This document shows positions 2 through 23,307 of a stretch of 23,307 bases of DNA, one piece after another. Position 1 is the stretch's first letter. Each line of letters opens with the position of its first letter. The DNA is from a virus, in the IMG/VR virus record IMGVR_UViG_3300021959_009925, positions 1 to 23,307 of that record; one strand, 5' to 3'. Position numbers and translations under genes: made by a program. The notes beneath the pieces were generated by a model. It was not told the origin of the DNA, did no database searches, and saw only the letters and a program-made list of their open reading frames with translations.

Positions 2-625
2 CCAAAAGATGTTTTGCGCTCGATTGCTCATGAATTAATCCATCACAGACAAAATATGGAAGACAGATTGGATACTGATGGATATAGTGGTCCTGGTTAC
101 TACTTAGAGAATGATAGCTTAAAAGAGGTAGAACATGAAGCGATGCTTGATGGGAATGCCACTATGAGAGAATACGAAGACACCGTCAAATATAAGGAGA
201 AAGACAAAATGTCACTTAAAGAATGGAAAAACAACGAATTAAACAAGCAATTGCTTAAAAAATTTGGTATCTTGGAAGAGAACAAGAAGCCTGACTTCTT
301 AGACCTTGATAAAGACGGAGACAAAGAAGAATCTATGGCCGATGCTGCTAAAGGCAAGAAAGACGACAAAAAGGAAGGTTTGGAAGAAGGCGAGTTACCT
401 GATGGCTTGAAAAAGCACATGAAGAATAAGAAAAATAAATACAAATCAGATCCTGATAACGATGATGATAAGCCTCCAAAAGGAGCTCCTCCTGCAGCTG
501 CCGAGGAAGAAGAAAAAGAAGCTGTGAAAGAGCAAAGCGAGGAAAAGGCTTCCAAAATACAAGAATCTATCCGAAAAATCGCAAAAGCTAAAAAAATATT
601 CTTAAATGGAAAAAGGATTAAATAA
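2..625 (+). CDS. HExxH metalloprotease-like phage protein, C-terminal part (5' truncated)
   Basis: The reading frame is open to the left edge, so the true start lies outside the window. The first codons read PKDVLRSIAHELIHHRQN. HELIHH (bases 29-46) is an HExxH zinc-binding motif, and an E-rich segment about 30 residues later (EVEHEAMLDGNATMREYE) could supply the third ligand, as in gluzincins. From about base 209 the protein becomes charged and low in complexity: SLKEWKNNELNKQLLKKFG, then a DLDKDGD acidic loop (from base 302) that resembles a calcium-binding DxDxDG loop, then Lys/Asp/Glu-rich and Pro/Ala stretches. It ends with a basic amphipathic helix (KIQESIRKIAKAKK). The combination of HELxHHxQ, an EWEDxxxRE-like second half and LKEWKxxELN is familiar from T4-like marine phage proteins of unknown role. 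The stop overlaps the next start (TAATG). Protease activity is inferred from the motif only. Confidence 0.75.
   Translation, partial: PKDVLRSIAHELIHHRQNMEDRLDTDGYSGPGYYLENDSLKEVEHEAMLDGNATMREYEDTVKYKEKDKMSLKEWKNNELNKQLLKKFGILEENKKPDFLDLDKDGDKEESMADAAKGKKDDKKEGLEEGELPDGLKKHMKNKKNKYKSDPDNDDDKPPKGAPPAAAEEEEKEAVKEQSEEKASKIQESIRKIAKAKKIFLNGKRIK
195..211 (+). promoter_or_regulatory. Possible internal ribosome binding site and in-frame start
   Basis: AGGAG at 195-199 is followed nine bases later by an in-frame ATG at 209-211. Initiation here would give a 138-residue product that starts MSLKEWKNNELN, without the HExxH domain. Similar MxLKEWKxxELN strings often stand at protein N-termini in related phages (from memory), so a nested product is conceivable. 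The site may equally be a chance purine run inside an AT-rich gene. Confidence 0.3.
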
Positions 626-1500
626 TGCATAAGAAGCAAGAAAAACTTCTCAGAGAATTTATCAAAAAAACTTTTGTTTCTAACTTAATTGCAGAGCAGA
701 GAGAAGAGCACGCCGTTAGGTCATATGTTCGATCTCTCATCTCTGAGGTTGTAAATGAAAAGCATCTGTCAACTCTTTTCGAAGCAAAAGATATGGCAAA
801 CCCACATCCCAATACTGGTATTAACAAATTAAGAGATGCTATTCGAAAAGCAAAGCCATCTATTAAATCAAAATACCAACAGCTAACAACTGATGGATCT
901 CAGAGAGAATCTTTTACAAACCATTTCTTAACAGCCATGGTTAGATTGTTTGATGAGCTAGATGCTTTAAATGCACAAGGTAAAGATGCTGAAGATATTG
1001 AATCTTCTCTGAGTGGAGAAAAGATTACCAATGATCTAAGTGCTCCACCATCTGATACATCGTCTGATGATATGGCTGATGATATTAATGATGACGGAGA
1101 CCTAGATTCTCTCTTGGAAGCTGTTGATATAGAAATTGATGATAGCGATATAGATCCAAATGATGTCATATCTGACGATTTTAAAGACGACGAGAACAAA
1201 GAGAAAATCAAAAATAAATCTCAAGCAGAAAAAGATTTTGATAAAAAGTCTGATGATAATGAAAAGCGCAAAGAATTTGGTGCCGGTGTTGATGGTGATT
1301 CAACCGGTAGAAACCAAGCCTTTGATGCCTTCAATCTGGTTCAAACTTATTTTTCCGATGCATATCTAGACTTAAACAATCCTGATGATCAGGAAATGTA
1401 TAAGAAATGGGGCTTATATAATATAAAATTACTTCTTGACAAATATGAAGAAGAATTAAACAATAACCCAACGGCTCCAAACATTGAAGACCCATCATAG
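625..1500 (+). CDS. Acidic hypothetical protein, possibly virion-associated
   Basis: This 291-residue protein starts at the ATG that overlaps the previous stop (TAATG), so it is translationally coupled. The N-terminal 60 residues are basic and helical and contain repeated hydrophobic-x-E steps (LREFIKKTF, LIAEQ, LISEVV, LFEAKD), which recall T4-type capsid-targeting or prohead-protease sites. Residues of about 60-115 look helical. About 130-215 is a very acidic, Asp-rich stretch (DDMADDINDDGDLD and onward) followed by a Lys-rich part. The C-terminal 70 residues (AFDAFNLVQTYFSDAYLDL and the rest) look like a small folded helical domain. I recognise no named family. Its position beside other leader-bearing proteins suggests a structural or internal virion role. 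Only the reading frame and composition are seen directly. Confidence 0.7.
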   Translation: MHKKQEKLLREFIKKTFVSNLIAEQREEHAVRSYVRSLISEVVNEKHLSTLFEAKDMANPHPNTGINKLRDAIRKAKPSIKSKYQQLTTDGSQRESFTNHFLTAMVRLFDELDALNAQGKDAEDIESSLSGEKITNDLSAPPSDTSSDDMADDINDDGDLDSLLEAVDIEIDDSDIDPNDVISDDFKDDENKEKIKNKSQAEKDFDKKSDDNEKRKEFGAGVDGDSTGRNQAFDAFNLVQTYFSDAYLDLNNPDDQEMYKKWGLYNIKLLLDKYEEELNNNPTAPNIEDPS

Positions 1501-1568
1501 TTTCCTCCTAAAGACACTACAAAAAACACTAACAACACACATATATAATATAACATATTGGAGAGGGT

Positions 1569-1889
1569 TTGTCAAGCAAAAGCATCAAAAAAAGATCATT
1601 TATATCAGAATTAAAACATGAAAGTCGGATAAATGAGAACTTCCTCAATATCGTATCTGATTTAAAACTTGAAGAATTGATTGCTGTCAAATTAGAACAA
1701 AGCGCTAGAATGACTGGTGGTAAGTTTTATAATTTCCCAATATGGTATACTTTACCATATATTTGCAAAGATGCTTGTTTTAAATTTGCTACCAGTATTT
1801 GCACAACTAAATCTGATATGGCTTCTTTATTAGGAATTCCATATAGTGTATTTATGCAAACATACAAAGAATATAATAAAAATCTATAA
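1569..1889 (+). CDS. Small phage protein with Fis-like C-terminal helix-turn-helix
   Basis: The 106-residue frame starts at TTG (1569), chosen because a strong GGAGAGGG (1560-1567) sits just upstream and no ATG/GTG near the front fits. The N-terminus is basic (SKSIKKRSFISELKHESR). A middle part reads LKLEELIAVKLEQSARMTGG and has a hydrophobic, Tyr/Phe-rich block. The last 30 residues (TTKSDMASLLGIPYSVFMQTYKEY) have the pattern helix, short turn, helix that ends Fis and NtrC-type proteins, where a SLLGIxxSxF-like core is typical. This makes a DNA-binding or transcription-related role possible but unproven. It lies just before the promoter at 1977-2005. I do not recognise a named family; a conserved phage hypothetical is the safe label. 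Confidence 0.6.
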   Translation: MSSKSIKKRSFISELKHESRINENFLNIVSDLKLEELIAVKLEQSARMTGGKFYNFPIWYTLPYICKDACFKFATSICTTKSDMASLLGIPYSVFMQTYKEYNKNL

Positions 1890-1943
1890 TATATATATAA
1901 AATAAACATAGTATAGTATTATTAATATATAAAATATGCCCAG

Positions 1944-1967
1944 AAAAACTTTCTTTAAAAAACTTTC
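1944..1967 (+). repeat. Short direct repeat upstream of promoter
   Basis: AAAAACTTTC occurs at 1944-1953 and again at 1958-1967, a 14-base period, and ends nine bases before the -35 box at 1977. It could be an UP-like A-tract element or a tandem activator/repressor half-site. The surrounding DNA is extremely AT-rich, so chance is a real alternative. Confidence 0.4.
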
Positions 1968-1976
1968 ACCTTTTGC

Positions 1977-2005
1977 TTGACATACCCTCAGAAGTATGAT
2001 ATAAT
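1977..2005 (+). promoter_or_regulatory. Consensus sigma70-type promoter with extended -10
   Basis: TTGACA (1977-1982) and TATAAT (2000-2005) are both perfect consensus and are separated by exactly 17 bases. TG at 1997-1998 gives an extended -10 (TGaTATAAT). Transcription should start near 2012, about 30 bases before the start of the small gene at 2042. The spacer holds a small inverted repeat, CATAC (1981-1985) and GTATG (1994-1998). It lies in the longest gene-free stretch of the window and would drive the genes from 2042 onward. Confidence 0.85.
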
Positions 2006-2041
2006 AGTATTACACAACAAAACACACTTGTGGAGATAAAG

Positions 2042-2212
2042 GTGAATGAGAATTATAATATAGATTTGTCGAGTATTCTTTTGCTTGTCACTACCGCTAT
2101 GTCCTCCTCCCTATTATTTGCGAAAGAACATGTGAAAATAAATATACTAGACATAAATACTTTTTCCACTTCTATCTCCACTTTTTATTTTACCCCTAGG
2201 AGGCTGTTGTGA
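2042..2212 (+). CDS. Small possible membrane protein
   Basis: A 56-residue frame with a GTG start at 2042. I prefer it to the in-frame GTG at 2030 because GGAG (2032-2035) lies six bases before 2042, while 2030 would overlap that site. The sequence begins MNENYNIDLSSILLLVTTAM and has a hydrophobic segment of about 16 residues (SSILLLVTTAMSSSLLFA) that could be a short membrane anchor. The rest is Ser/Thr/Phe-rich and ends FTPRRLL, where the codons coincide with the next gene's Shine-Dalgarno site, so that part of the protein is constrained by the RBS. It is the first frame after the promoter at 1977-2005. It could also be just a leader region. No family recognised. Confidence 0.5.
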   Translation: MNENYNIDLSSILLLVTTAMSSSLLFAKEHVKINILDINTFSTSISTFYFTPRRLL

Positions 2213-2589
2213 CAGAAAAGAAAATACTAAGAAACTTGCTTGAGTTCGGAATCGATCTCGCTCTAACATCTGAAGATGAAAACATCTATTATGCTTTAGA
2301 GTTTGCAAATTTTATTCAAGATTCTATGGAGTTTGACTCATTGATGACATCTGAGTCCGAAATAGATATTTACAATTATGAAGAAAAAGTCTTAACCGTT
2401 ATCATACAGGACGGCACATTAACAATTGAGCCCCACATTGAAGAAGGAGCATTTGAAGCAGTCTTGTTGATTCTCAAGTTTGTATCAGAACAACACGAAG
2501 AGGTAAAAGAAAAATATGTCAAACTAAATACTGAAGAATCCCTAGATGATACTGAGGGTGTAAGTGATGATGATTCAGAATGGATTTGA
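2209..2589 (+). CDS. Acidic hypothetical protein
   Basis: 126 residues, GTG start at 2209 preceded by a near-perfect TAGGAGG (2197-2203). The start overlaps the previous stop (GTGA). The protein is acidic, rich in Glu and Asp, and probably helical with a central beta segment (EEKVLTVIIQDGTLTIEPH). The tail is a highly acidic run (TEESLDDTEGVSDDDSEW). No catalytic motif and no membrane segment is visible, and I recognise no family. The strong ribosome binding site right behind a consensus promoter suggests substantial expression, perhaps early in infection. A DNA-mimic or host-protein binding role would fit a small acidic phage protein, but that is speculation. Confidence 0.7.
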   Translation: MTEKKILRNLLEFGIDLALTSEDENIYYALEFANFIQDSMEFDSLMTSESEIDIYNYEEKVLTVIIQDGTLTIEPHIEEGAFEAVLLILKFVSEQHEEVKEKYVKLNTEESLDDTEGVSDDDSEWI

Positions 2590-2590
2590 T

Positions 2591-2914
2591 ATGAAAATAT
2601 TTTATTTAAACAGAACAGAAGACGAAAGCGGAGTCTCAGGAACAGGACGTGTCGCTCAGGGGTTCATTTTCGACAATGGAAAAGTAGCAGTAACTTGGCT
2701 ATCAGAACACCCTTCTGTAACGGTATATGATAATATTGGAGAGGTGCATGCTATCCATGGGCATGGAGGAAAAACCGAAGTTGTAATGGATCCTGATTAC
2801 AAGAAAGCATTTGGGGAATTAAAATCTTCAATTGAAAACTTTAGTCTGTCGGAGGTTGTAAAGGGAAAGATTCCTGTTGATGGGCATGCCTCAAAACTCA
2901 TGAGTAAGAACTAA
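2591..2914 (+). CDS. Conserved small phage hypothetical (VSGTGxVAxG family)
   Basis: I place the start at ATG 2591, directly after the previous stop at 2589, rather than at upstream in-frame ATGs that would sit inside the previous gene's acidic tail. This gives 107 residues beginning MKIFYLNRTEDESGVSGTG. The pattern of an Arg/Asp-rich opening, VSGTGRVAQGFIFDNGKVAVTWLSEHPS, then a VYDNIGEVHAIHGHGG block is one I associate with a widespread small protein in phages and some bacteria, of unknown function. It is predicted to be mainly beta. The last 45 residues (DPDYKKAFGELKSSIENF and on) are a helical extension. No strong Shine-Dalgarno is seen, so translation may be coupled to the upstream gene. 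Confidence 0.75.
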   Translation: MKIFYLNRTEDESGVSGTGRVAQGFIFDNGKVAVTWLSEHPSVTVYDNIGEVHAIHGHGGKTEVVMDPDYKKAFGELKSSIENFSLSEVVKGKIPVDGHASKLMSKN

Positions 2915-2921
2915 TTAATAT

Positions 2922-3446
2922 GTGAATAAATTGTATACGCTAAAATTGGATGCTTCTTGGCGACCCATTGAGGTTGTCGATAGTTTTAAAGGTTTTTCAT
3001 TGGTGTTCTCCGGAAGAGCGCAGGTCGTCGAGAATCACTCTCAACTGGCTTGTGCTCTTTTTTATTTCCCGTCAATAGTTGTCTTGAATTCATACATTAG
3101 AAAAAGACAATTCAGAGTATCACCAACGAGAAATACAATATTTTACAGAGACAGGTATGTTTGTCAATACTGTCAGAAAAGATTTAGCAAAAGTAAATTG
3201 ACACTTGACCATGTTACGCCAAAGTCCAAAGGTGGCGATAAATCATGGTCGAACTTAGTTACTAGTTGTAGCAAATGTAACCAGAAGAAGGCAGACAAAA
3301 CTCCTTTTGAAGCGAACATGACACTACTTAAAGAACCTGCTCCGCCTAAGAACAGCTACTGGAATTCACCAGAATGGTTGCTATCTAGAGTGGGAAACAA
3401 TGCCCCAAAAGAGTGGGACAAATTTTTAGGAGTTTTAAATGAATGA
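2922..3446 (+). CDS. HNH endonuclease with zinc-ribbon cysteines
   Basis: 174 residues from GTG 2922; the ATG two bases upstream is out of frame and stops at once. The N-terminal 60 residues (LDASWRPIEVVDSFKGFSLVFSGRAQVVE) match the usual front domain of small HNH proteins. The nuclease core spans about 70-125. CQYC (C81, C84) and CSKC (C116, C119) form a structural zinc site. LDHVTPKSKGG carries D96-H97, N111 is the central Asn, and N120-x2-K123 ends the motif. Such proteins make metal-dependent nicks or breaks. In phages they may be free-standing homing enzymes or helpers of packaging and host DNA breakdown. Here the gene is embedded in an operon (next start overlaps by eight bases), which argues for a domesticated role over a recent homing insertion. 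Family call is strong; role is inferred. Confidence 0.9.
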   Translation: MNKLYTLKLDASWRPIEVVDSFKGFSLVFSGRAQVVENHSQLACALFYFPSIVVLNSYIRKRQFRVSPTRNTIFYRDRYVCQYCQKRFSKSKLTLDHVTPKSKGGDKSWSNLVTSCSKCNQKKADKTPFEANMTLLKEPAPPKNSYWNSPEWLLSRVGNNAPKEWDKFLGVLNE

Positions 3447-3678
3447 AGAATTAATGGACAAGATCCTTGAACGATGCAAGGAAGACAAAGATTTTGCTAT
3501 GGTCTTTGATCACCTTATGAAAGCATCACAAGCTGCCGCAGCTGCTGGTATGACAACTGAAGAACTGGCTACGATATGCATGACGGGCTGGACAATAGGG
3601 TCTGATCCACAATTAGCAGAGATGCTCAAAAGTATGACGAAGATTTCAAAAATAGGACTGGACATTATAGAAAAATGA
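3439..3678 (+). CDS. Small helical hypothetical protein
   Basis: 79 residues. ATG 3439 overlaps the end of the HNH gene by eight bases and has AGGAG at 3428-3432. The protein is predicted to be all-helical: two charged N-terminal helices (EELMDKILERCKEDKDFAMVF), an Ala-rich turn (QAAAAAGMTTEELATICMTGW), and a final amphipathic helix (QLAEMLKSMTKISKIGLDII). No catalytic motif is visible and I do not recognise a family. Coupling to the HNH gene suggests a shared operon only. Confidence 0.7.
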   Translation: MNEELMDKILERCKEDKDFAMVFDHLMKASQAAAAAGMTTEELATICMTGWTIGSDPQLAEMLKSMTKISKIGLDIIEK

Positions 3679-3709
3679 GCTATTTACTGTATCTTATAGG
3701 AGAATTGAT

Positions 3710-4021
3710 ATGAAAATTACAAACAAAGAAATTAAAAAAATTATTAAAGAAGTTCTAGATGAGCAAGAAAATTTTGGAAAGCAAGCTGTTACAACGACTG
3801 ATTCTGTAAAATCTTTAAAGCAGAGGTCAAAAGAAGCATCTTCTCAACAAGGTGTTGACAATAGAGAAAGAGGGATTATTCAACAAATAGAGACTAACCT
3901 AGCTAAATTAGCCGATATTGCCGATCTAAAATCAGGTAGAGTATTTTCAATCCTAAAGAGGTTGAATATGATGATTGAAAAAGAGTTAGAAAAGATTGAA
4001 TCTAAAAAGGGAAGCGAATAG
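3710..4021 (+). CDS. Small helical phage protein with basic N-terminal leader motif
   Basis: 103 residues, ATG 3710 with AGGAG at 3698-3702. It begins MKITNKEIKKIIKEVLDEQ, a basic amphipathic helix with I-x-E and L-x-E steps. Openings of the MKITKxxLxxIIKEE kind recur on many otherwise unrelated proteins of large marine phages (from memory), which suggests a sorting or processing tag. A polar linker follows, then a conserved-looking helical domain of about 45 residues (VDNRERGIIQQIETNLAKLA, then IADLKSGRVFSILKRLNMMI). The stop overlaps the GTG start of the 738-residue gene (TAGTG). A virion or internal protein is plausible; function unknown. Confidence 0.75.
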   Translation: MKITNKEIKKIIKEVLDEQENFGKQAVTTTDSVKSLKQRSKEASSQQGVDNRERGIIQQIETNLAKLADIADLKSGRVFSILKRLNMMIEKELEKIESKKGSE

Positions 4022-6237
4022 TGTATGATACAAAAGAAATACTAAAGCTTGTTGTTGAACACGAAGCTGTGCAAAAGCTGTATTTGATCAATAATATTGA
4101 TAATTCCTTAATTAATAGAATGATTGTCGAAGAAACTCTAAATTTCAACAACTTTCTTAGAGGAGCTCTCGTTCAACAGGGGGCTATCCTGAAAGAAGGT
4201 GATGAAGACACTGACGTGGACCCGGACCCAGATCCTGTTGACAATCCGGAGCCTATACCCAGAAATCGAAACACGGTGATGAATTTTTTCGCTATGGTTG
4301 AGAATATGTTTCCAGAACAGCAGATGTCCAGTGAGAATCCTGAACTTTACGATAAATTTAAAAACAGTATAGTGAACAAAATCAAGGATGCACTTGATCA
4401 ACCAGAAAAAATTGAAACAGCACTAAGACTTATGGGATACATCACCCCCTTGTTGAAACAGGGTAAGGCAACAATTAACGCCACTACAAACGCCGACCAT
4501 AAAAAAGAAATAAGAAAGAGATATTTGGAAACAGTTATAAAGACATTCATGGAGAAGGAAGTAGGTCAATCGTTAAAAGATTTATCAGCAGAACAAGACG
4601 AAACAGATTCCACAAAATATATAGCAGATAATATAACAATGGCCTACTTGTCAACTCTTGGAGACGGATATGTCTCTCTAGAAAAGACAAATAATGGAGA
4701 CGGACCAATTGTTCGATTTGTTAATCAAAGCATGAGCAAGACAAAAGAATTTATTAATAATCCACCTGCTTCAAGTAATAGTATACCCAACAATATTATT
4801 AAAGCCATCAATGCATATAGAGATGATAGTGCATCCGAAGATCAGAAAACACGCGCGAAGTCTGCCTTTGATACACAGTTTCCTAAATTAGATTCAGCTG
4901 AATACATCACACTAGCGAGCAACATTATGACTCCGGAAATCAATAAATTAGGTGCAGATACCAAAAAGCAACTACAGAAAATGATAAAAAAACAACTCAA
5001 GTCCATAGAAGGTCTCACCTCAAACCCAGAGGTTAGCAAAGACGAAAAGGACTTTAAAGATAAATTGAGAAGAATATTTGATCTGTTTAAGAAAAGAGTC
5101 TCTTCCTATATTGATTATGCAAAACAATTCAAGGTTCGAGCTGAAAAAAAGTATGACGATCTCGAACAAAGGGAAGATTTGAAATCGTTCATCAATAAAA
5201 CAATACCAAAAGCGATTGGGGATCTAGAATCAAAACTTAGAGAGATCGAAACTGAGCGCATTAAAATAGACCAGCCTATAAACGAAGTGAGGATAGGAGA
5301 TTTCGACACAGAAACCCCGAACCTCAACACGTATTCTCACGGTGATGTCGTTGCCTTCATTAATGAATTCGCAAAAGAACTCGATACCGAAAATGGTGAA
5401 GACGGAACTGTAAATCATATATTTAAGCAAATTTTGGATATGACTAAGAACGAAGAAGTTTATAAAAGAGGCCGTAGTAACCTAATTGATCCTGAAGATG
5501 GCGCAATAATAGACACCCCAGAAAACAAAGAGAGGTTATCTTTAGATAATTTTTTAAAAGCATTTTTGGACAACCTTGTAGCAAAAGATTCCACCGGCCT
5601 GGACTTAGCATATGTTGACACATTGCTTGAATTCACAGACATAGTTAAGCCAAGTCTGATTTCTTCAATTAAATCATCGTTAAGAGGGCTAACTTCTTAC
5701 ATAGCAGAAGCTTCTAATCTAGATCCAGATGAGTTGGTTGATAAGACAAAAGAAGATTTGACAAGCGCTACGAAGCCCTTTTTGGAAGAGTTGATACTTG
5801 CATTCCTAGGGTATAAAAAAGCCCTGTGGTTCAGTAAAATGGGAGATTTGCCTAATATTAAGATGTTTAAGCTTCCGATCAAAAGAGGTCTTAAAACAAA
5901 AAAAACCCAATACGAAATCATAAAGTTTCTCTATACTAATAGGAGAAAACTATCAGGCATTCAATTCGATATATACCAGAAGGTTAAGAACAATGATATT
6001 GACATCGCAGCCCTTGAAAAGTTTAAAGAGTTTTTTAAATCACATGGCGCCGGCAGTAATGCATCCACTAGCATCTCAGAACTTGGTTCTGGGAGCGACG
6101 AAAAAGAATTTGTAAAAAATTTCTTCCTAGATAAACTCATTGAGCCAACGATGCCAGAAGGTGTAGAAGTGGGACTGAGGCCAATAGTTCAAAAAATTCT
6201 AGAAAACACAATAGAGAGGAGTAAGTATGAAAAATAA
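4021..6237 (+). CDS. Large helical hypothetical protein, probable virion component
   Basis: 738 residues, the largest gene here, with a GTG start overlapping the previous stop. The first 55 residues are helical and hydrophobic with several V/I-x-E steps (LVVEHE, MIVEETL), which could hold prohead-protease sites. Residues 61-81 form an acidic Asp-Pro linker (DEDTDVDPDPDPVDNPEP). The remainder is almost entirely helical and charged, rich in Lys, Glu and Asp, with no membrane segment and no enzyme motif that I can see. A short Gly/Ser break (GAGSNASTSISELGSGSDE) lies near the C-terminus before a last helical domain. The next gene starts inside its end, a ten-base overlap. Size, leader-like front and neighbours favour a structural or capsid-internal protein. 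Family unknown. Confidence 0.75.
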   Translation: MYDTKEILKLVVEHEAVQKLYLINNIDNSLINRMIVEETLNFNNFLRGALVQQGAILKEGDEDTDVDPDPDPVDNPEPIPRNRNTVMNFFAMVENMFPEQQMSSENPELYDKFKNSIVNKIKDALDQPEKIETALRLMGYITPLLKQGKATINATTNADHKKEIRKRYLETVIKTFMEKEVGQSLKDLSAEQDETDSTKYIADNITMAYLSTLGDGYVSLEKTNNGDGPIVRFVNQSMSKTKEFINNPPASSNSIPNNIIKAINAYRDDSASEDQKTRAKSAFDTQFPKLDSAEYITLASNIMTPEINKLGADTKKQLQKMIKKQLKSIEGLTSNPEVSKDEKDFKDKLRRIFDLFKKRVSSYIDYAKQFKVRAEKKYDDLEQREDLKSFINKTIPKAIGDLESKLREIETERIKIDQPINEVRIGDFDTETPNLNTYSHGDVVAFINEFAKELDTENGEDGTVNHIFKQILDMTKNEEVYKRGRSNLIDPEDGAIIDTPENKERLSLDNFLKAFLDNLVAKDSTGLDLAYVDTLLEFTDIVKPSLISSIKSSLRGLTSYIAEASNLDPDELVDKTKEDLTSATKPFLEELILAFLGYKKALWFSKMGDLPNIKMFKLPIKRGLKTKKTQYEIIKFLYTNRRKLSGIQFDIYQKVKNNDIDIAALEKFKEFFKSHGAGSNASTSISELGSGSDEKEFVKNFFLDKLIEPTMPEGVEVGLRPIVQKILENTIERSKYEK

Positions 6238-7096
6238 TATGAAACTTATCATGGAATCGTGGAGAAACTCCTATACCCTGAAAGAGGCCTCTGTAGAAAG
6301 ATCGGATGAGTGGTTAAATGAAATCACTGTATTGGAGTTTTTAGACTCTCTACAGGATAAAGGAAAGGATTTGAATATTGAGGCAATGCAAAAAGCTATT
6401 GCTGGAGCAGAGAGAAAGTTTTCTAAAGAAATTGCTGAAATAGAACAGAAGGATAGGTCTCGCTGGAGGAAGGTGTGGGGCGCATTAAACTCGGCTAAGA
6501 GCTTAGAGACGGTTTCTGGATTTCTATCTGACGCTGTCAAAGCAACAGCCGGATCAGCGGTAGCTGTAGGAACTGGCACTGCGGTAGTAGTGGGTTCTTC
6601 TGCTTTAGCAGCCCCTGTGTTTGCGTTGGGTGTTGTTGGATATTTTGTTTTTACAAGAGCATCAGATTTACTATCAGAAAAAGTTGTTGAGATGGCAGTT
6701 AGTGCTGGAACAGCATTGGAAAAACTTGATATTAAAGATCAAGATTTAGCTGCAACACCAGCATACAATATTGTAGACATATCAGATGACACCAAGAAAG
6801 TTGTTATGGGCCCCGATGGGGAGTTGTCTAATCAAGAGACAGCAGCACTCGCAGTGGCATATAAGAAGATTGAAGAAGCTTTTCAGAAAATTCAAGAAGA
6901 ACAGAACCAACTTTTGCAACTACCCGGTAATACCCCAGAAGAGATTGCCTCAAGACTTGAAGCGTGGCGACAGCATCATAGCAAGCCAATGAAGCAATTT
7001 CTAGACCATACAGCAGATTCATATGTAAAACAAGCATATGCAAAGATGATTAAACTAAACAAAGATGTAACTATAAACAAAGACGGAACACCCTAG
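6227..7096 (+). CDS. Protein with central hydrophobic hairpin and leader-like N-terminus
   Basis: 289 residues. I use ATG 6227, five bases after AGGAG (6217-6221); a second in-frame ATG at 6239 would give MKLIMESWRNSY. That opening resembles the KLxxENWRxxLxE leaders seen on many marine phage proteins and contains I-M-E, a fit to the T4 prohead protease rule (L/I)-x-E. Residues 21-100 are helical and charged. Residues 104-143 are a long Ala/Gly/Val-rich hydrophobic stretch (AVAVGTGTAVVVGSSALAAP then VFALGVVGYFVF), enough for two tight membrane passes or a hydrophobic hairpin. A segment GPDGELSNQETAALAVAYKK follows, then Gln/Glu-rich helices. This could be a virion protein that inserts in a membrane during DNA entry. 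That is inference; no family recognised. Confidence 0.75.
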   Translation: MKNNMKLIMESWRNSYTLKEASVERSDEWLNEITVLEFLDSLQDKGKDLNIEAMQKAIAGAERKFSKEIAEIEQKDRSRWRKVWGALNSAKSLETVSGFLSDAVKATAGSAVAVGTGTAVVVGSSALAAPVFALGVVGYFVFTRASDLLSEKVVEMAVSAGTALEKLDIKDQDLAATPAYNIVDISDDTKKVVMGPDGELSNQETAALAVAYKKIEEAFQKIQEEQNQLLQLPGNTPEEIASRLEAWRQHHSKPMKQFLDHTADSYVKQAYAKMIKLNKDVTINKDGTP

Positions 7097-7105
7097 GAGT
7101 CCCTA

Positions 7106-8452
7106 ATGGCAAAAAAAAATCTCATCATTGACACAAACGTATTTCTTTCAGATAGCGAGTGTCTAAGTAAATTTGATAATAATGACATATTCATTCCAGT
7201 AAAAGTTCTCGAAGAGCTTGATAAACATAAGACGCGTCAAGACTCTGTAGGTTTTCATGCTAGACAGACAATCAAAAAACTTGACTCCCTACGCTCCCGA
7301 GGATCGCTCTCAAAGGGTATTAGACTCGGCAAGGGACTTGGAGTCCTCAAGGTTCTCAAAGTGGAGGAGTTGTTGCTTGATGAGCTTCCTATGGGTCTTT
7401 CTCATAAAAGTTCGGACCACCTTATCCTTGCTGGGGCTCTTGGTGTAAAGGAAGCTGACCCAAAAAGAAAATGCGTGGTAGTGTCTCAAGACATTAATAT
7501 GCGAGTCATAGCTGACTCTTTGGGATTAATAGCTCAGGATTATGTATCTTCCCAAGTCGTAGATTCTAGAGAGGTTATTTTTGAAGGATTTACTAAATTT
7601 CTTGTTGATGACTTTATGATCGAAGAGTTTTATGACAATCAAGATGTTTGGCTATACGAAGAAGAAGCTATAGAGCAAAAAATCAAACTCCACCCAAATG
7701 AATTTGTAATGATGGTTTCAGTCGAGAACGAAAAGAAAACTGCCATTGCAAGATTTGACTCATGGAGCAAGCCTTTGATTCGTCTCTCAACAATGAAAGA
7801 TGACATTTTCTCATGGGGCGTCAAGCCAAGAAACAAAGAACAGAAGTGTGGACTAGATTTGCTTTTAAACGACGAAATTCCGCTCGTGAGCCTCATTGGT
7901 CGTGCCGGTAGTGGTAAGACCCTCATGGCAATCTTAGCGGGCTTAGAACAAGTCCTAGGCCTCGAAAAGGGACGTTACAATCGTATCATCATTTCCAGAC
8001 CAATTCAAACGCTTGGAAAGGACATCGGGTATCTACCAGGAACGATGGAAGAAAAGATGGCTCCTTGGATGAAGCCTATCTTTGATAATATGCAATATAT
8101 CATGGGCACAGACAAGACCATGTTGGAGATGTATTTATCAAAAGGCGTTATTGAAATCGAAGCACTAGCTTACATTAGAGGTCGCTCTATTTCTGACGCA
8201 TTTGTCATTATTGACGAAGCACAAAACCTTACAGCTCATGAAGTTAAAACAATCATCACTCGTATTGGCGAGAACACAAAAATTGTTCTAACCGGAGATA
8301 TTGAGCAAATTGACAATGTATACACAAATGAGACATCAAATGGTCTAACGTATGCTGTTGAAAAACTGAAACAAAGTAGATTATCAGGACATGTCACATT
8401 TAAGAAAGGTGAGCGTTCAAAACTGGCAACAGAAGCCTCAAAGTTACTATAG
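7106..8452 (+). CDS. phoH: PhoH-family ATPase with N-terminal PIN domain (PhoH2 type)
   Basis: 448 residues, ATG 7106; AGGAG (7095-7099) overlaps the stop of the previous gene. An N-terminal PIN ribonuclease domain (about 4-150) opens with IIDTNVFL (D9), has VLEELDKHK (E36/E37), a later SSDHLILAGAL and VVSQDINMR, the usual acidic metal-binding positions. The PhoH ATPase domain (about 245-448) has Walker A GRAGSGKT (265-272), the PhoH signature SRPIQTLGKDIGYLPGTMEEK, and Walker B FVIIDEAQ (D370, E371). PIN-PhoH proteins of bacteria have been reported to unwind and cut RNA. PhoH is among the commonest auxiliary genes of marine phages, though its link to phosphate stress is uncertain. Full length, all key residues present. 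It sits in a run of + strand genes without its own evident promoter. Confidence 0.95.
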   Translation: MAKKNLIIDTNVFLSDSECLSKFDNNDIFIPVKVLEELDKHKTRQDSVGFHARQTIKKLDSLRSRGSLSKGIRLGKGLGVLKVLKVEELLLDELPMGLSHKSSDHLILAGALGVKEADPKRKCVVVSQDINMRVIADSLGLIAQDYVSSQVVDSREVIFEGFTKFLVDDFMIEEFYDNQDVWLYEEEAIEQKIKLHPNEFVMMVSVENEKKTAIARFDSWSKPLIRLSTMKDDIFSWGVKPRNKEQKCGLDLLLNDEIPLVSLIGRAGSGKTLMAILAGLEQVLGLEKGRYNRIIISRPIQTLGKDIGYLPGTMEEKMAPWMKPIFDNMQYIMGTDKTMLEMYLSKGVIEIEALAYIRGRSISDAFVIIDEAQNLTAHEVKTIITRIGENTKIVLTGDIEQIDNVYTNETSNGLTYAVEKLKQSRLSGHVTFKKGERSKLATEASKLL

Positions 8453-10069: not shown

Positions 10070-11335
10070 ATGTCAAAAAAAATTAAAATTTTAACTTTAA
10101 GTGATCATCCCTTATCTCCATCTGGAGTTGGGACTCAAACTAGATATGTAATTGAGGCTTTGCTGCAAACCGGTAAGTTTCAAGTGTTGAGCTTAGGAGG
10201 GGCAATCAAGCACGTTGACTACACCCCTAAGATGGTCGAGCCGTGGAACGAAGATTGGAAAATCATCCCAGTCGATGGATATGGCACACAAGAAATGATA
10301 AGGTCAGTGTTGAGAAATGAAAAGCCTGATATTGTATGGATGATGACGGATCCAAGATTCTATGAGTGGCTATGGTCTATTGAGAATGAAATTAGACCTC
10401 TAGTTCCGATTGTTTATTATCACGTATGGGATAACTTCCCAGCACCACACTTCAATAAAAAATTCTATGAATCAAATGATCTTGTTGTTGCAATCTCAAA
10501 ACTTACAAGAGACGTTGTAAAAGAAGTAGCACCCAATGTTGCACTCAAATATATCCCCCATGCCGTCCGAGAAGACGTATTCAGCCCTATCTCATCAGAG
10601 GACAGGGATGCACTGAGAGAAACTATCTTAGGAGATGATAAAGACAGATTTGTAGCATTTTGGAATAATAGAAACGCAAGAAGAAAACAGTCTGGAACCC
10701 TTATTTGGTGGTGGAAGGAGTGGCTCGACAAAAGAAATCTTCATCAAAAAGCCCAACTTATAATGCATACCGAGCCAAAAGATCCTCATGGGCAAGACTT
10801 GAATCACATCGTAGAACAACTTGGTCTTGATTCCGACCGTCAATTGTTGTTCTCAACGCAAAAGGTGCCATTGGAACAGATGGGTAACTTCTACAGGATG
10901 GCGGATGTCACAATTAATATATCTGATGCTGAGGGCTTTGGCCTTGCAACTTTAGAATCGCTGTCTTGTGGGACACCTATTATAGCAAATATGACTGGGG
11001 GACTACAGGAGCAAGTAATTGGTTCAGAGGGGGAAAATGGCATCGCGATATTTCCTTCTTCTAAATCTATCATTGGGTCTCAACAAGTTCCGTATATCTA
11101 CGAAGACAGGATTAGTAAAGAGTCTTTCCATTCGGCTCTAGATAAGATGTATTTTACAGACACCAAAGGTCGACTCGAACTAGGCCTTCAAGGCTTTAGG
11201 CATGTTCGTGAAAACTATTCTTTTGAAAATTTTTGCAAACAATGGGTCGACACCATGCTAGAGGTTCATAAGACTCATGGTTCCTGGTCGACTCGAAAAG
11301 GATACAATGGTATAACATTCAGAGAAGTGGCATGA
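10070..11335 (+). CDS. GT4-type glycosyltransferase
   Basis: 421 residues, ATG 10070, AGGA at 10060-10063. GT-B fold layout. The N-terminal half begins KIKILTLSDHPLSPSGVGTQTRYV, with the glycine-rich acceptor-side loop. The C-terminal half contains a nucleotide-sugar site, SDAEGFGLATLESLSCGTP, with the E-x7-E pair (E288, E296) typical of retaining GT4 enzymes. Just upstream, RNARRKQSG resembles the basic loop that grips the donor phosphate. No membrane segment. It is the first gene after the 9986 promoter and the first of three related GT4 genes. The stop overlaps the next gene (ATGA). Donor and acceptor cannot be told from sequence. Confidence 0.9.
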   Translation: MSKKIKILTLSDHPLSPSGVGTQTRYVIEALLQTGKFQVLSLGGAIKHVDYTPKMVEPWNEDWKIIPVDGYGTQEMIRSVLRNEKPDIVWMMTDPRFYEWLWSIENEIRPLVPIVYYHVWDNFPAPHFNKKFYESNDLVVAISKLTRDVVKEVAPNVALKYIPHAVREDVFSPISSEDRDALRETILGDDKDRFVAFWNNRNARRKQSGTLIWWWKEWLDKRNLHQKAQLIMHTEPKDPHGQDLNHIVEQLGLDSDRQLLFSTQKVPLEQMGNFYRMADVTINISDAEGFGLATLESLSCGTPIIANMTGGLQEQVIGSEGENGIAIFPSSKSIIGSQQVPYIYEDRISKESFHSALDKMYFTDTKGRLELGLQGFRHVRENYSFENFCKQWVDTMLEVHKTHGSWSTRKGYNGITFREVA

Positions 11336-11619
11336 AAAACAAAAATACAAAAAACTATGGAAAAACCCCTTTAGACAGTAGATCTAATTTCGATTCGCTC
11401 TACAATGAAGAGATAACCTACAACGTCCACCCTGATGTAATAATAAATGCCAATTCGTTTAGAGTAGGAGACTTGGTTGAAACAGCAGAGGGCTCAATTG
11501 GGCTAGTTGTAGGAGAAGCGGAATACGATAGACAAGGGTTTCAAAAATATCAAATCAATATACGTGGAAAGAAATTTTTATACACATCAATTGAATTAAA
11601 AAAAATGGAAAACAAATGA
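11332..11619 (+). CDS. Small SH3-like beta-barrel protein
   Basis: 95 residues, ATG 11332 overlapping the previous stop. The first 40 residues are polar and Asn-rich. The rest looks like a small beta barrel: FRVGDLVETAEGSIGLVVGE, a short acidic turn, then FQKYQINIRGKKFLYTSIEL. A GDLVxxxxGxxGxVxxx opening is typical of KOW or SH3-type barrels that bind nucleic acid or protein. No catalytic motif. It is wedged with overlaps between two glycosyltransferases, which suggests shared expression and perhaps a partner role. The fold is a guess from pattern. Confidence 0.65.
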   Translation: MKNKNTKNYGKTPLDSRSNFDSLYNEEITYNVHPDVIINANSFRVGDLVETAEGSIGLVVGEAEYDRQGFQKYQINIRGKKFLYTSIELKKMENK

Positions 11620-12845
11620 AAAAGAAAATTTTTGTAAGGGGTCCGGTCCTTTCACAATCCGGATATGGAGAACAGTCTAGATTTGCCCTTAGGGCTTTGA
11701 GGTCTCGCGAAGACCTGTTTGAAGTATATATCCAACCCATAAGCTGGGGTCAAACTGGCTGGGTGTGGGAAGAGGATGAGTTTAGAGAATGGATTGATCA
11801 GAGAATTCTGGAAACACAAGTAAGACTACAACAAAAAGAATTAGAACCAGATGCATCACTTCAAATTACTATCCCAAACGAGTTTCAAAAACTGTGCCCC
11901 ATCAACATTGGATATACAGCTGGTATTGAAACGGACCGAGTTTCCCCTGTGTGGCTACAAAAGGGAAATGAAATGGATAAAATTCTAGTAGTTTCTAATC
12001 ATGCAAAGGACACATACGTCAACTCTAGAGTTGAAGCTACAAATAATAAAACTGGTGAAAACTTCTTATATCAACTGAACACCCCTGTTGACGTTGTGTG
12101 GGAAAATACTCCAATATCAAAAACACTAGAAGAGATACCGGGATTTAACCCCAGACATGATTTTAATTTTCTCTGCGTGTCACAAATGGGACCAAGAAAG
12201 AATTTAGAAAATACATTAGTCTGGTTTGTGGAAGAGTTCATCGACCAAGATGTCGGACTGATTCTCAAGACTAATACTAGATCAAACTGTGTAATTGACT
12301 TAGGTCACACGGAGAATATCCTCAAGAGAATTTTAAGTGCATACCCAGAACGTAAATGCTCCATATCTCTTTTGCATGGTGATCTTTCTGTTGCACAAAT
12401 GAAGTCACTATACGAACATGACAAGGTCAAAGCCATGATCAACATATCTCATGGCGAAGGGTTTGGTCTCCCACTTTTTGAAGCAGCAAGAAGTTGTCTT
12501 CCGATTATTTCCATTTCATGGTCTGGCCAAAAGGACTTCTTATCTGCTGGCGGTAATGACATGTTCCTAGTGGCCAAGCACACCCTGAAACCCGTGCAAA
12601 AACAAGCAGTCTGGGATGGGGTGATTGAAAAAGATTCACAATGGGCCTATGCTAGCCAAGGATCTTTTAAGATGGCATTGCGATTAATGTTTAAGAATTA
12701 CGATGATTTCACCACTCAAGCAAAAGAGTTGAGAGACCATGTTGATGCAAACTTTCGTGATGAAGTTTTATTTGACAATTTCTGCCACTCTATTAGTTCC
12801 ATGTTCGACGAAGAAGAAGTTGAAAAGAAGATAGTAATCTTATGA
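11616..12845 (+). CDS. GT4-type glycosyltransferase
   Basis: 409 residues, ATG 11616 overlapping the previous stop (ATGA). The start MKKKIFVRGPVLSQSGYGEQSRF has the same SGYG-x-Q-x-R acceptor loop seen in its neighbours. In the C-terminal half, MGPRKNLENTL is the donor-phosphate loop and SHGEGFGLPLFEAARSCLP carries the E-x7-E pair (E281, E289). The protein lacks membrane segments. Similar stand-alone GT4 proteins occur in large marine phages. The substrate is unknown; the sequence context with NeuB and NeuA suggests a surface-type glycan over DNA-base glucosylation. Second member of a GT4 array. Confidence 0.9.
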   Translation: MKKKIFVRGPVLSQSGYGEQSRFALRALRSREDLFEVYIQPISWGQTGWVWEEDEFREWIDQRILETQVRLQQKELEPDASLQITIPNEFQKLCPINIGYTAGIETDRVSPVWLQKGNEMDKILVVSNHAKDTYVNSRVEATNNKTGENFLYQLNTPVDVVWENTPISKTLEEIPGFNPRHDFNFLCVSQMGPRKNLENTLVWFVEEFIDQDVGLILKTNTRSNCVIDLGHTENILKRILSAYPERKCSISLLHGDLSVAQMKSLYEHDKVKAMINISHGEGFGLPLFEAARSCLPIISISWSGQKDFLSAGGNDMFLVAKHTLKPVQKQAVWDGVIEKDSQWAYASQGSFKMALRLMFKNYDDFTTQAKELRDHVDANFRDEVLFDNFCHSISSMFDEEEVEKKIVIL

Positions 12846-14797
12846 AAGTAGTTTTCTCAAGCCAGTTTAGAGATAGCAGCGGATATGCTTCAGCAGCTAG
12901 GTCTTACCTACATGCAATTGATTCTGTTATTGATGATTACGATATTGACTTCTCCATACTATCAATCAGTGTAGAGAGTGTTAGTAAGATCTCTAAAGAC
13001 GAGGAAGATTTAATTCAAAAATACGAAATCAATCTAGACAAGGTTGACTCTATGTTGTCTGGGGATGTTTTGCTAATATGGCACCAACCAGCAGGTATGA
13101 TACTTTTTGGAGACCAAAACCTAAGCAGTGACCCCCACTGGCAGGCATTTAAAAACTTGTTGGAGAATGCAACAAAGAATATAAACATGACCGTTTGGGA
13201 ATCCAATAAGATACCTGACTTATGGTCTAGCATCCATAAGAGATTTAAGACCAAATCGACAATTGTTCCTTGTTCGTGGAATCAGAAAGTCTTTTCTAGC
13301 GAAGGGTTAAGGTCACACTTATTACCACACGTAGTATCAGATAAGACTGTAAGCCCAGAAGAATTTAGAAACTTTCCCGTTAACTTAGATGAATATTTTA
13401 CAGTGTTCTCCATGTCTCAGTGGATTCACAGGAAGGGTTTTGATGCTCTGGTAAAAGCATTCGCAATGGAATTCAACAATACACCAAATGCAATCATGAT
13501 TATCAAAACTTATGTGAGTGCCATGAATCTTAATCAGTTCGGCTTCAATAAACAGTCTGAGATGGTTAGGGACAACATCATGTCTAACAAAAACATGGTC
13601 CTTAAACATGGTAAGGTGTCTAATGCTAAAATAATTCCTATATGTGACATACTTCCATATAATAAGATTTCTTGGCTTTATTCAAAATCTGACGTCTTTG
13701 CATTGGCAACTAGGGGAGAGGGTTTCGGCCTAACCATATCTGAAGCGATAATGCATGAAAAACCAGTCATAGTTCCCGATAAGGGTGGGCACATGGATTA
13801 TGTTGATCCAAACTCTAATTTCATATTTAAATCTTACGAGTCTCCTTATTTAGGAGATCCTGGCTATGATTATGATATGACGTGGAGAGAACCAGACCTA
13901 ATAGATCTGAGAAAAAAATTAAGAGACTCTTATAATTGCTGGAAAGAAAATTCCCTAGAAAAGAGAGGAAAGACATCGAAGGAGTTCTTACATGGGTATG
14001 ACTCTGACTCGATAGGTCATAAATTCATGGACATAATCAATGGTGAATTGAAAATGCCGGACTCTTTGAAAGAAAGAATCATCAGCACATCTTCAAACTC
14101 TAGAAAGATTAATGATCTAAAGAACTCTTTCAAAGATAAGGAGTGTTATATTTTGACATGTGGACCAAGCCTAAATCAATACTCTCCAGATTTTTTAAGA
14201 GAAAAACTTAAGGATAAGCTAGTCATAGCAGTAAAGCAAGCATATAATTATGTTCCAGAAATTGTAGACTTTCACTTGTTTAATTCAAATAATTGTGAAA
14301 TATATGACTATAGTAAAAACAGACCAGTAGTTATCACTTGCGCCGCAGAACAAGAACTATCCATGGTTCATAGTGTCTGGTCAAACAAGCAAGAATACGA
14401 TATCTTCACTTTTATAGAAGACGATAAAGACTTTTCAAAATCGATATGCAAGTCTCACAACTTTGAAGAGTTCGTGTTTGATAATAAAATGGAAAGACCT
14501 TGGGGTCCGGGAATGATGTCTGAATTGGTAATTTATCTAGCTCTACATCTAGGAGTTAGTGAGATCAATACAATTGGTTGGGACCTTGAAGAGCCCGGCT
14601 CAACTAAATCAAACCATTATTATAAAAATCGAAATGTTACAAGACCCGCAGACCCAATGAAACAAGAAGAGATAATATTAAACATTAAAATGACAGAACA
14701 CTTGAATAAGTGGTTGGAAGGTAAAGGCGTTAAGCTATACATTGCCAATGACAAGTCTTATGTCGACAAATCAATATCTAGGAGATTATTAAAATGA
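12842..14797 (+). CDS. Fusion of GT4 glycosyltransferase and GPS-motif (GT42/DUF115-like) domain
   Basis: 651 residues, ATG 12842 overlapping the previous stop. Residues 1-about 405 are a GT4 enzyme: SSGYASAARSYLHAI opening loop, SQWIHRKGFDALVKAF donor loop, and ATRGEGFGLTISEAIMHEKP with E293 and E301. After a linker, residues about 430-651 form a second domain that opens CYILTCGPSLNQY (G441-P-S-L). It continues DKLVIAVKQAYNYV and ends with INTIGWDLEEPGS then SNHYY. GPSL followed by a Rossmann-like strand and a late GxD is the pattern of GT42 sialyltransferases (CstII) and of DUF115/MptE-like proteins. The fusion would couple two transfer steps. It lies immediately before the NeuB gene, fitting a nonulosonic-acid role. 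Donor identity is inferred. Confidence 0.85.
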   Translation: MKVVFSSQFRDSSGYASAARSYLHAIDSVIDDYDIDFSILSISVESVSKISKDEEDLIQKYEINLDKVDSMLSGDVLLIWHQPAGMILFGDQNLSSDPHWQAFKNLLENATKNINMTVWESNKIPDLWSSIHKRFKTKSTIVPCSWNQKVFSSEGLRSHLLPHVVSDKTVSPEEFRNFPVNLDEYFTVFSMSQWIHRKGFDALVKAFAMEFNNTPNAIMIIKTYVSAMNLNQFGFNKQSEMVRDNIMSNKNMVLKHGKVSNAKIIPICDILPYNKISWLYSKSDVFALATRGEGFGLTISEAIMHEKPVIVPDKGGHMDYVDPNSNFIFKSYESPYLGDPGYDYDMTWREPDLIDLRKKLRDSYNCWKENSLEKRGKTSKEFLHGYDSDSIGHKFMDIINGELKMPDSLKERIISTSSNSRKINDLKNSFKDKECYILTCGPSLNQYSPDFLREKLKDKLVIAVKQAYNYVPEIVDFHLFNSNNCEIYDYSKNRPVVITCAAEQELSMVHSVWSNKQEYDIFTFIEDDKDFSKSICKSHNFEEFVFDNKMERPWGPGMMSELVIYLALHLGVSEINTIGWDLEEPGSTKSNHYYKNRNVTRPADPMKQEEIILNIKMTEHLNKWLEGKGVKLYIANDKSYVDKSISRRLLK

Positions 14798-15621
14798 AAA
14801 AAACTTATGTTATAGCTGAGATCGGAATTAACCATAATGGCTCATTAGAAATAGCGAAGAAACTAATCGATGTAGCAGCAGTCTCTGGTTGCGATGCGGT
14901 AAAGTTTCAAAAAAGAAACCCGGACGTTTGTGTCCCAGAGCATCAGAAAAATAAGCCTCGCGAGACCCCATGGGGAACCATGACATACCTGGAATACAAA
15001 TACAGAATGGAGTTTGAAAAAGAAGAGTATGATGAGATCGACAGATATTGTAAAGAAAAGGGTATTGAATGGTCTGCATCTCCGTGGGACTTGGATTCTC
15101 TTGAGTTTATTATGAACTATGACATTCCATGGATTAAAATCCCATCCGCAATGATTACCAACGAAGCGCTTATGAAGGCTTCTGCAGCCACAGGTAAGAA
15201 GGTTATTTTCTCAACCGGTATGTCGACATATGAAGAGATTGATACGGCTTGTGAGTGGCTATCTGACTGCCCTATTTTGATGCTACACTGCAACTCTTCA
15301 TACCCAGCACCTCTTAAAGATCTAAACCTGAAGTGTATTCAGACTTTGAAGAGTAGATATGGATGCGAAGTAGGTTACAGTGGTCATGAGTTTAGACTTG
15401 GAACTTCGGTAGCGGCTGTTTATCTTGGCGCGGAATGCATCGAGAGACATATAACTCTGGATAGAACAATGTGGGGATCTGACCATCTATCTTCTGTAGA
15501 GCCTCAAGGTTTAATTAAAATGGTCCGTGGCATTAGAGAGTTAGAAGAAGCATATGGTGATGGTATCAAAACAGTAACCGATGGCGAGCTAGCTCCTAGA
15601 AAAAAACTAAGAGGGTATTAG
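14794..15621 (+). CDS. neuB: NeuB-type nonulosonic/sialic acid synthase lacking the SAF domain
   Basis: 275 residues, ATG 14794 overlapping the previous stop. NeuB-family enzymes condense phosphoenolpyruvate with a hexosamine-derived sugar to make sialic, legionaminic or pseudaminic acid. Seen here: AEIGINHNGSLEIAK (E9, N13-H14-N15-G16), CDAVKFQKR, IKIPSAMITN, STGMSTYEEI, LHCNSSYPAP, GYSGHE (H198) and ECIERHITLD (H219). The two His are 21 apart, as are the metal-binding His of meningococcal NeuB. The TIM barrel is complete, but the protein stops at GELAPRKKLRGY, where the C-terminal SAF (antifreeze-like) domain of about 60-70 residues normally begins; usual length is about 340-350. The next gene starts at the stop, so the domain is absent, not frameshifted nearby. 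Exact substrate unknown. Confidence 0.92.
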   Translation: MKKTYVIAEIGINHNGSLEIAKKLIDVAAVSGCDAVKFQKRNPDVCVPEHQKNKPRETPWGTMTYLEYKYRMEFEKEEYDEIDRYCKEKGIEWSASPWDLDSLEFIMNYDIPWIKIPSAMITNEALMKASAATGKKVIFSTGMSTYEEIDTACEWLSDCPILMLHCNSSYPAPLKDLNLKCIQTLKSRYGCEVGYSGHEFRLGTSVAAVYLGAECIERHITLDRTMWGSDHLSSVEPQGLIKMVRGIRELEEAYGDGIKTVTDGELAPRKKLRGY

Positions 15622-16406
15622 TGTATAGAGCGAGGCTAAATCAAGGCGGGTGGTTTTCATTTAACTCTAGAAAGAGTGAGTGGAAATCGCATTATGCCGA
15701 TACAATGTTCGATGTTTTTTTCGATAGACTTAGGATTGAGAAAAGTTTTGGATCTTTAAATATCAATGAAGAGCTCTTGATAACCAATAATTTAGACTTC
15801 TCAGCTGTCAAGGGTAAGGAGGTTTTGGTGATTGGCGGAGGACCATCTTCTAAAGACTTAACAGTGGAAGAATGCGAGAGATATGATTATATATTTTCTT
15901 GCAATCATTTCTTTAAGTCTAGAGATCTAAGTAATAAGAAAATTAATTTGGCATTAATTGGAGATGAAGTAAATTTGAATGGAGCAGAGTTAAATAATTA
16001 CCTTAAAAGTCACAATACGATTTTGGGATTTGAGCATTCTTCAAAAAGATCTACTGATGACCTTGTTAGGTTCAAAAAGAGATATGACAATTGCTTTGTT
16101 TTTTTAACTAGATACTTTTCTAGACTTGGATATGTTGCTAGAGCATGTGTATTGGCAAAAGAAATGGGTGCTTCAAAAATTCACTTTATCGGCATGGATG
16201 GGTTCAAATCTCAATATCACCACTTTGAAGCAAAGAAGAATCCTCCACCGTTTAATGATGAGGAAAAGTTTAGAGATCAAATGAAAATATTTTATAAACA
16301 CATGCTAGAAACATACAGCTTAGAGAATTTTAAAAACTTGTCTGACGGCCATCCATCAAGCATATATACGGGAATAATGAAGGAGTTACTAAATGAAGAA
16401 GATTGA
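15621..16406 (+). CDS. GT42/DUF115-like putative sialyltransferase
   Basis: 261 residues, GTG 15621 with GAGGG at 15611-15615, overlapping the neuB stop (TAGTG). After a 65-residue front part comes VLVIGGGPSSKDL (G74-P75-S76), then YDYIFSCNHFFKSRDL and INLALIGDEVNL, and later KIHFIGMDGF with a His-rich tail of that motif (QYHHFEAKK). The order GPS, CN-x-F, then GxD resembles Campylobacter CstII (GPSL, CNQFYFED, SGIDF), a GT42 sialyltransferase. DUF115-type proteins of flagellin glycosylation share the GPS fold. Location between NeuB and NeuA supports use of a CMP-nonulosonic acid. It is a paralogue of the gene at 17860. No membrane segment. Enzyme class is a family-level inference. Confidence 0.75.
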   Translation: MYRARLNQGGWFSFNSRKSEWKSHYADTMFDVFFDRLRIEKSFGSLNINEELLITNNLDFSAVKGKEVLVIGGGPSSKDLTVEECERYDYIFSCNHFFKSRDLSNKKINLALIGDEVNLNGAELNNYLKSHNTILGFEHSSKRSTDDLVRFKKRYDNCFVFLTRYFSRLGYVARACVLAKEMGASKIHFIGMDGFKSQYHHFEAKKNPPPFNDEEKFRDQMKIFYKHMLETYSLENFKNLSDGHPSSIYTGIMKELLNEED

Positions 16407-17849: not shown

Positions 17850-17859
17850 GAATATTAAC

Positions 17860-21485: not shown

Positions 21486-21486
21486 T

Positions 21487-22406: not shown

Positions 22407-22415
22407 GAGAAAAAA

Positions 22416-23156: not shown

Positions 23157-23307
23157 ACTATCAAGCCAAGCCATCGGCGCAATCATGATGGCACTACAAA
23201 AGTCTCTGCTCGAGCAATCAGATATAACGCCCGTTTTAGAGGGTTTTGAAATTCAAGTTGATGATAGTGGGGAATTAGTTATTATGAACCCGCCAACGTT
23301 TGAGATA
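23146..23307 (+). CDS. Short conserved phage hypothetical, 3' end outside the window
   Basis: ATG 23146, with GGAG at 23136-23139 six bases upstream. The frame is open to the last base, giving 54 residues that begin MNHKLSSQAIGAIMMALQKS. The Leu/Ala/Met-rich first helix, then LLEQSDITPVLEGFEIQVD, and a strand ending LVIMNPPTFE look like a small protein I associate with T4-like cyanophages and other large marine myoviruses; its function is not known. Its match in style supports the phage assignment and marks the likely end of the glycan genes. If complete, little more than a short tail should follow. Confidence 0.75.
   Translation, partial: MNHKLSSQAIGAIMMALQKSLLEQSDITPVLEGFEIQVDDSGELVIMNPPTFEI

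Follow-up and report, generated by a model that had tools for sequence, protein, structure and literature searches.

The leaders that open four proteins of an uncultured virus are probably capsid-targeting propeptides of a T4-like head-assembly pathway, packaging and cleavage being what their sequences would predict. The four proteins start at positions 625, 3710, 4021 and 6227 of a 23,307-base stretch of DNA (hereafter the window), which is the whole of its viral record. An earlier note on this DNA had compared their N-termini with the capsid-targeting sequences (CTS) of phage T4; this interpretation was supported, indirectly, by the enrichment of such leaders in related genomes, by the prohead protease of the relatives, by the swapping of leaders between homologous bodies and by the mostly unrelated nature of the bodies themselves. 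The best reading of the sequences is a variant of T4-like capsid targeting in which the leader families would be new and the set of injected cargo proteins large.

The window is probably a fragment from an uncultured marine T4-superfamily myovirus, and no close DNA relatives of it were matched among cultured phages. The open reading frame starts at 625, 3710, 4021 (GTG) and 6227 are real, and the strings LREF, IKEVLDEQ, VVEHE and LIMESW, picked out by the earlier note, were all found in these proteins; its description of the leaders of 625, 3710 and 6227 as basic also held, each being net basic when counted from the sequence. Searches of Pfam and PHROGs gave no function for any of the four. 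The phoH-like gene that closes the locus (Table 1) served to locate relatives, of which eight IMG/VR genomes of 114–206 kb were analysed with genes, including their starts, called by a simple script.

In the relatives' proteomes, otherwise unrelated proteins begin with leaders of two recurrent families: class A, with the consensus MKxTxxxLKxIIKEEL (window member 3710; example MKLTKETLKRIIKEELEAVL), and class B, with the consensus MKLLMENWRRFLxE (window member 6227; example MKLLMENWRRFINE). Seven relatives each harbour 6–15 class A or B genes, some of them far from the head genes. Regular expressions, which were composed after inspecting the data, found 62 class A-like N-termini against 9.2 (maximum 18) in shuffled N-termini, and 16 class B N-termini against 1.0 (maximum 5). 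A firmer test used score matrices trained without the genome being scanned: at a strict cut-off these detected 44 class A N-termini versus 3 internal matches and 17 class B N-termini versus none, the internal positions being far more numerous than the N-terminal ones; at the loosest cut-off the N-terminal density was approximately 87 times (class A) and 37 times (class B) the internal density. The enrichment over shuffled N-termini that the earlier note had proposed as a check was strong in the eight related genomes, and extended to the comparison with internal positions. A tblastn search with the class A and class B consensus leaders gave no convincing matches in cultured phages, and no paper describing these leaders was found in the open-access literature.

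The (L/I/V)xE steps quoted by the earlier note were weak evidence when taken alone. Among other proteins of the eight related genomes, 29% of stretches spanning residues 14–30 and 28% of those spanning residues 30–46 contain an (L/I/V/M)xE step; since such steps are this common, with about 29% of any 16-residue stretches containing one, the quoted strings prove nothing by themselves. The likeliest cut sites, listed as candidates in Table 1, also differ from the quoted steps. Nor is one leader common to all four proteins. The class A score of 3710, with the window held out, was 30.7, against a highest value of 15.7 among 31,000 shuffled N-termini, and the class B score of 6227 was 14.4 (p about 1e-4); 625 and 4021 fell outside both classes (best p 0.008 and 0.037 respectively). 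With 3710 in class A, 6227 in class B and 625 and 4021 in neither, the four proteins represent three or four leader types. The leader signal seen by the earlier note thus stands well clear of shuffled sequence for 3710 and 6227 but does not place 625 and 4021 in either class; the leaders of these last two are conserved within their own families.

Table 1. Predicted leaders, tags and bodies of the four proteins, and the phoH-like gene, in the window.
Feature	Coordinates	Strand	Basis
Predicted propeptide of 625 protein, residues 1–53; likeliest cut LFE53↓A	625..783	+	Junction motif, invariant E53, helix model
Body of 625 protein: helical, acidic linker; family here only in uncultured viruses	784..1500	+	Homologue searches
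Class A leader of 3710, MKITNKEIKKIIKEVLDE; likeliest cut IKE14↓V or LDE18↓Q	3710..3763	+	Held-out matrix score, phmmer
Body of small class A protein 3710	3764..4021	+	Locus comparison
N-terminal tag of 4021 giant, residues 1–41 (..VVEHEAVQKLYLINNIDNSLINRMIVEETL); likeliest cut IVE37↓E	4021..4143	+	Family tag match
C-terminal tag of 4021 giant (VGLRPIVQKILENTIERSKYEK)	6169..6237	+	Family consensus EQIxxKLxPIIExxL
Class B leader of 6227, MKNNMKLIMESWRNSYTLKE; likeliest cut LKE20↓A	6227..6286	+	Held-out matrix score, phmmer
Body of 6227, hydrophobic stretch near residues 103–142	6287..7096	+	Hydropathy up to 2.14 over 19 residues
phoH-like gene, conserved end of locus, untagged	7106..8452	+	PHROG match E=6e-106; no leader in matrix scan

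Within the 625 family, an (L/I/V)xE step lies just before a conserved TGIN motif in all 43 leader-bearing homologues, compared with 13.6 (maximum 23) after shuffling, although these homologues are not independent trials. The residue following the junction Glu is mostly A, G or K, and E53 of the window protein is invariant in an alignment of 33 sequences despite varying leader length. An AlphaFold2 model bears out the helical leader claimed by the earlier note for this protein, with a single helix across residues 3–58, a dip in confidence at residues 51–60 and a helical body thereafter. The 625 protein had no match in cultured phages, and a fold search with the model returned no significant match in the PDB. 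The preceding gene (14–625) encodes a 5'-truncated protein with a HELIHH zinc-protease-like motif, an acidic linker and a basic C-terminal helix, and forms with the 625 gene a pair that is conserved in relatives G001 and G002.

The best phmmer matches of 3710 to other proteins run mainly through residues 1–25 or 1–30. A small class A protein of 59–109 amino acids lies just upstream of a giant protein in most, not all, of the relatives with this locus, and giants of approximately 545–1570 amino acids are found upstream of phoH in many relatives. In most giants a very variable body lies between two tags, KHPxIKxLxE...RLIVEEIM at the N-terminus and KLxPIIExxL at the C-terminus. By position and tags the 4021 protein fits this family of rapidly evolving giants whose terminal tags are conserved; its E37 occupies an invariant column among 13 sequences. 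The AlphaFold2 model of 4021 was poor (mean pLDDT 44), so we make no claim about its fold. Two giants (L014:6892-9999 and L017:6661-10008) have a J-domain match right after the N-terminal tag, one of which falls below Pfam's cut-off. Elsewhere, a conserved protein of 136–145 amino acids encoded right after the protease (G001 70605-71030, flipped coordinates, and homologues) opens with MNKEQLKKTLKPLIKECIKEVIFE, which resembles the KLKPIIE tag at the C-termini of the 4021 giants.

For 6227, phmmer matched residues 1–66 only, in two proteins (G003 107540 and L037 6824), and a whole-protein search of viral contigs found no relatives. Three other proteins with the same leader subtype also have a hydrophobic, membrane-segment-like stretch.

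Candidate cleavage sites accompany both classes of leader. An (L/I/V/M)xE step occurs within 16 residues in 36 of 46 class A proteins, versus 29% in other proteins; 5 of the 20 class B proteins in the genomes have no site just after the leader core. A second sample was gathered by searching 2.9 million viral contigs with a degenerate DNA pattern for class B residues 1–11, and overlaps the first slightly, as a few contigs were already among the relatives used. It yielded 53 distinct class B proteins, 50 of which have an (LIVM)xE step in residues 11–18, i.e. beyond the searched part, and in 43 of the 53 the step starts exactly at residue 12; in other proteins about 12% of windows of similar length contain such a step. 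The residue after the class B Glu is often E, D or Q, unlike the A of the T4 internal proteins (IPs), and the exact bond is uncertain for this reason.

The earlier note had also suggested a search for a prohead protease elsewhere in the genome. As a fragment, the window itself contains neither a prohead protease nor a capsid protein gene, but a T4-gp21-type protease (S77) was found in 10 of 14 relatives; the four without a match are records of 62–114 kb, which may be fragments. Three more class B contigs exceeded 170 kb, and each of them also encodes the S77 protease. In seven major capsid proteins from the larger relatives the sequence ENQA(K/R)ELLRE followed by S/A is invariant, and the cut in T4 gp23 lies about where this LRE↓(S/A) junction falls. 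In G001, one class B and one class A gene are found between portal and protease, the place that prohead core genes 67 and 68 occupy in T4.

The leaders resemble the CTS of the T4 internal proteins IPI, IPII and IPIII: in both, a short N-terminal leader with (L/I)xE at its end is carried by otherwise different proteins, and the S77 protease and prohead core gene order recur in the window's relatives. T4 gp21 cuts after (L/I)xE, and the positions of IPIII that are important are 4 and 7 for targeting, and 8 and 10 for processing (PMC9026906). The N-termini of T4 IPII and IPIII read MKTYQEFIAEA, and most class B leaders keep the aromatic-x-x-aromatic-(I/L)-x-E arrangement of MKTYQEFIAE with its spacing; the pattern aromatic-x-x-aromatic-(ILV)-x-E occurred at 17 N-termini versus 3.4 (maximum 10) when shuffled. 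The residues that count in IPIII (aromatics at 4 and 7, Ile 8, Glu 10) are matched by most class B leaders but not by class A, 625 or 4021, and in 6227 the site is shifted relative to the IPIII spacing, with LKE after WRNSYT. The T4 CTS is a single leader; here there are several families, class A lacks the aromatics, leaders swap and far more proteins are tagged, their packaging being a prediction. T4 Alt is processed at both termini (PMC9026906), and conserved tags likewise occur at the N- and C-termini of the 4021 giants; the giants differ in that no ADP-ribosyltransferase domain was found in them, their bodies are very variable and two have a J-domain match. In phiKZ and SPN3US, a protease related to gp21 cleaves the propeptides off head proteins, cutting after x-E (PMC9026906, PMC10052503), a parallel that extends to ejection proteins; in SPN3US, however, the motif is AxE, most propeptides are long (111–254 residues) and no role as swappable tags is described for them there.

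Flavobacterium phage vB_FspM_immuto (immuto; host strain LMO8), a cultured relative by its capsid protein (49% identity at 65% query coverage), also has repeated leaders of its own. One type is MKKSQLRQIIKEAL-like, with one copy between portal and protease, and another, MENFDLKKFLVENKLTxNSKLLKE-like, occurs at four places. Virion proteomics or N-terminal mapping of immuto was sought and none was found; a paper on Baltic Flavobacterium phages makes no mention of it. Scaffold C-termini (G001 79394-80524, flipped coordinates; relatives; immuto L172:25626-26867) end in a conserved R-x-x-(K/R)LAGI, and this motif, possibly a docking motif, recurs in the N-terminal leaders of G001 142427 and immuto 111675.

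The bodies behind the leaders are mostly unrelated, as the earlier note had supposed for the window: 66 tagged proteins form 48 body clusters, and in the second sample the 52 proteins long enough to compare form 37. In two clusters the bodies are homologous but the leaders differ. One is a group that is GNAT-like by eye, with class A in G003 28378 and class B in G010 174957 (bodies E=1.7e-34); the other pairs class A in G001 125695 with class B in G013 98382 (bodies E=2.8e-12), the latter matching DUF3293. Since homologous bodies can have either leader, class A and class B tags look interchangeable, which suggests that they do the same job. The swapping also lends indirect support to the idea that a leader by itself would suffice to bring a foreign protein into the head.

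Most tagged bodies have no Pfam match. Those that do include a class A-tagged S-adenosylmethionine (SAM) lyase match (G007 151103, E=1.2e-10), a zeta-toxin-like kinase, an AAA_33 kinase, Nudix and GNAT acetyltransferase domains, an M23 peptidase, a phosphodiesterase domain and weak protein kinase matches. Bodies of this kind would fit injected functions in host takeover or counter-defence. The SAM-lyase-like protein also drew a match in the PDB, which was discarded as not meaningful. A tape-measure reading of a giant class B protein (G012 145682) was also rejected, a homologue of the putative G001 tape-measure gene lying elsewhere in that genome.

We weighed several alternatives. It is unlikely that they are permanent docking helices that stay uncut and bind a phage structure (scaffold, tail or compartment) or each other. 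Their helix-like character, the class B proteins without a site right after the core, and the motif R-x-x-(K/R)LA(G/N)(I/V), common to scaffold C-termini and two leaders and suggestive of a common partner, would suit such a role; however, the (L/I/V)xE step is fixed at the 625 junction (43/43) and nearly so in class B (50/53), and a matching protease is present in relatives. A function in directing new proteins to a chaperonin is improbable. The N-terminus of T4 gp23 provides a precedent in directing proteins to GroEL (as cited in PMC10052503), a chaperonin-like gene occurs in G001 and G012, and groEL is annotated in immuto, but the leaders are unlike the N-termini of the capsid proteins that these genomes encode, tagged proteins as small as 59–109 amino acids would hardly need a chaperonin and the conserved cut sites would be left unexplained.

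That the similarity belongs to a DNA or RNA element at gene starts, acting as a translation or recombination signal, is very improbable even though every copy lies at a gene start: 61 matches to the class B DNA pattern comprise 44 distinct 33-base sequences for nearly the same peptide, which indicates selection on the protein, and pairs of identical class A residues differ in codon in 46% of cases, where genome usage would give 60%. The reading is contradicted by this codon variation and was rejected. Chance resemblance, in which amphipathic helices at N-termini would simply share a frequent (L/I)xE step, is extremely improbable; single (L/I/V/M)xE steps are indeed common everywhere, but the excess of both classes over shuffled N-termini (for patterns composed after inspection), the leader swaps and, most directly, the held-out N-terminal enrichment contradict it.

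Under the capsid-targeting interpretation, the N-terminal leader would recruit the tagged protein to the prohead scaffold core, a gp21-type protease would cut after (L/I/V)xE, and the bodies would be freed inside the head for injection with the DNA. As class A and class B tags look interchangeable on homologous bodies, many unrelated proteins could be loaded. Of the window's proteins, 3710 and 6227 would carry these general tags; the propeptide of 625 would be longer, specific to its family and closed by a conserved site; and 4021 would be a rapidly evolving giant with a tag at either end, in the manner of T4 Alt. Among the few tagged proteins that T4 injects, at least IPI is an inhibitor that blocks a host restriction system (PMC9391042). 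We lean towards the view that a widespread marine branch of the T4 superfamily uses a few interchangeable N-terminal labels to load many unrelated enzymes and membrane-active proteins for injection, such that the injected effectors of uncultured viruses could be read from sequence alone; the putative cargo would include a SAM lyase, a zeta-toxin-like kinase, acetyltransferases, a Nudix hydrolase, protein kinases and membrane-active proteins. If the leaders are packaging tags, many proteins of uncultured marine viruses with no assigned function become predicted injected effectors, and the tags could be used to direct foreign proteins into phage heads.

Two further loci were seen in the course of this work. 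Four consecutive paralogues of approximately 310–370 amino acids (L002:2132-6599) have LYRGLH...(S/T)S-type motifs and appear ADP-ribosyltransferase-like by eye; they are not class A or B tagged, and one small class A protein is encoded among them. In the window itself, positions 10070–23307 hold a large sugar and surface-modification cluster that includes glycosyltransferases and, by eye, sialic-acid synthase-like (14794), CMP-sugar synthetase-like (16393) and methyltransferase-like genes.
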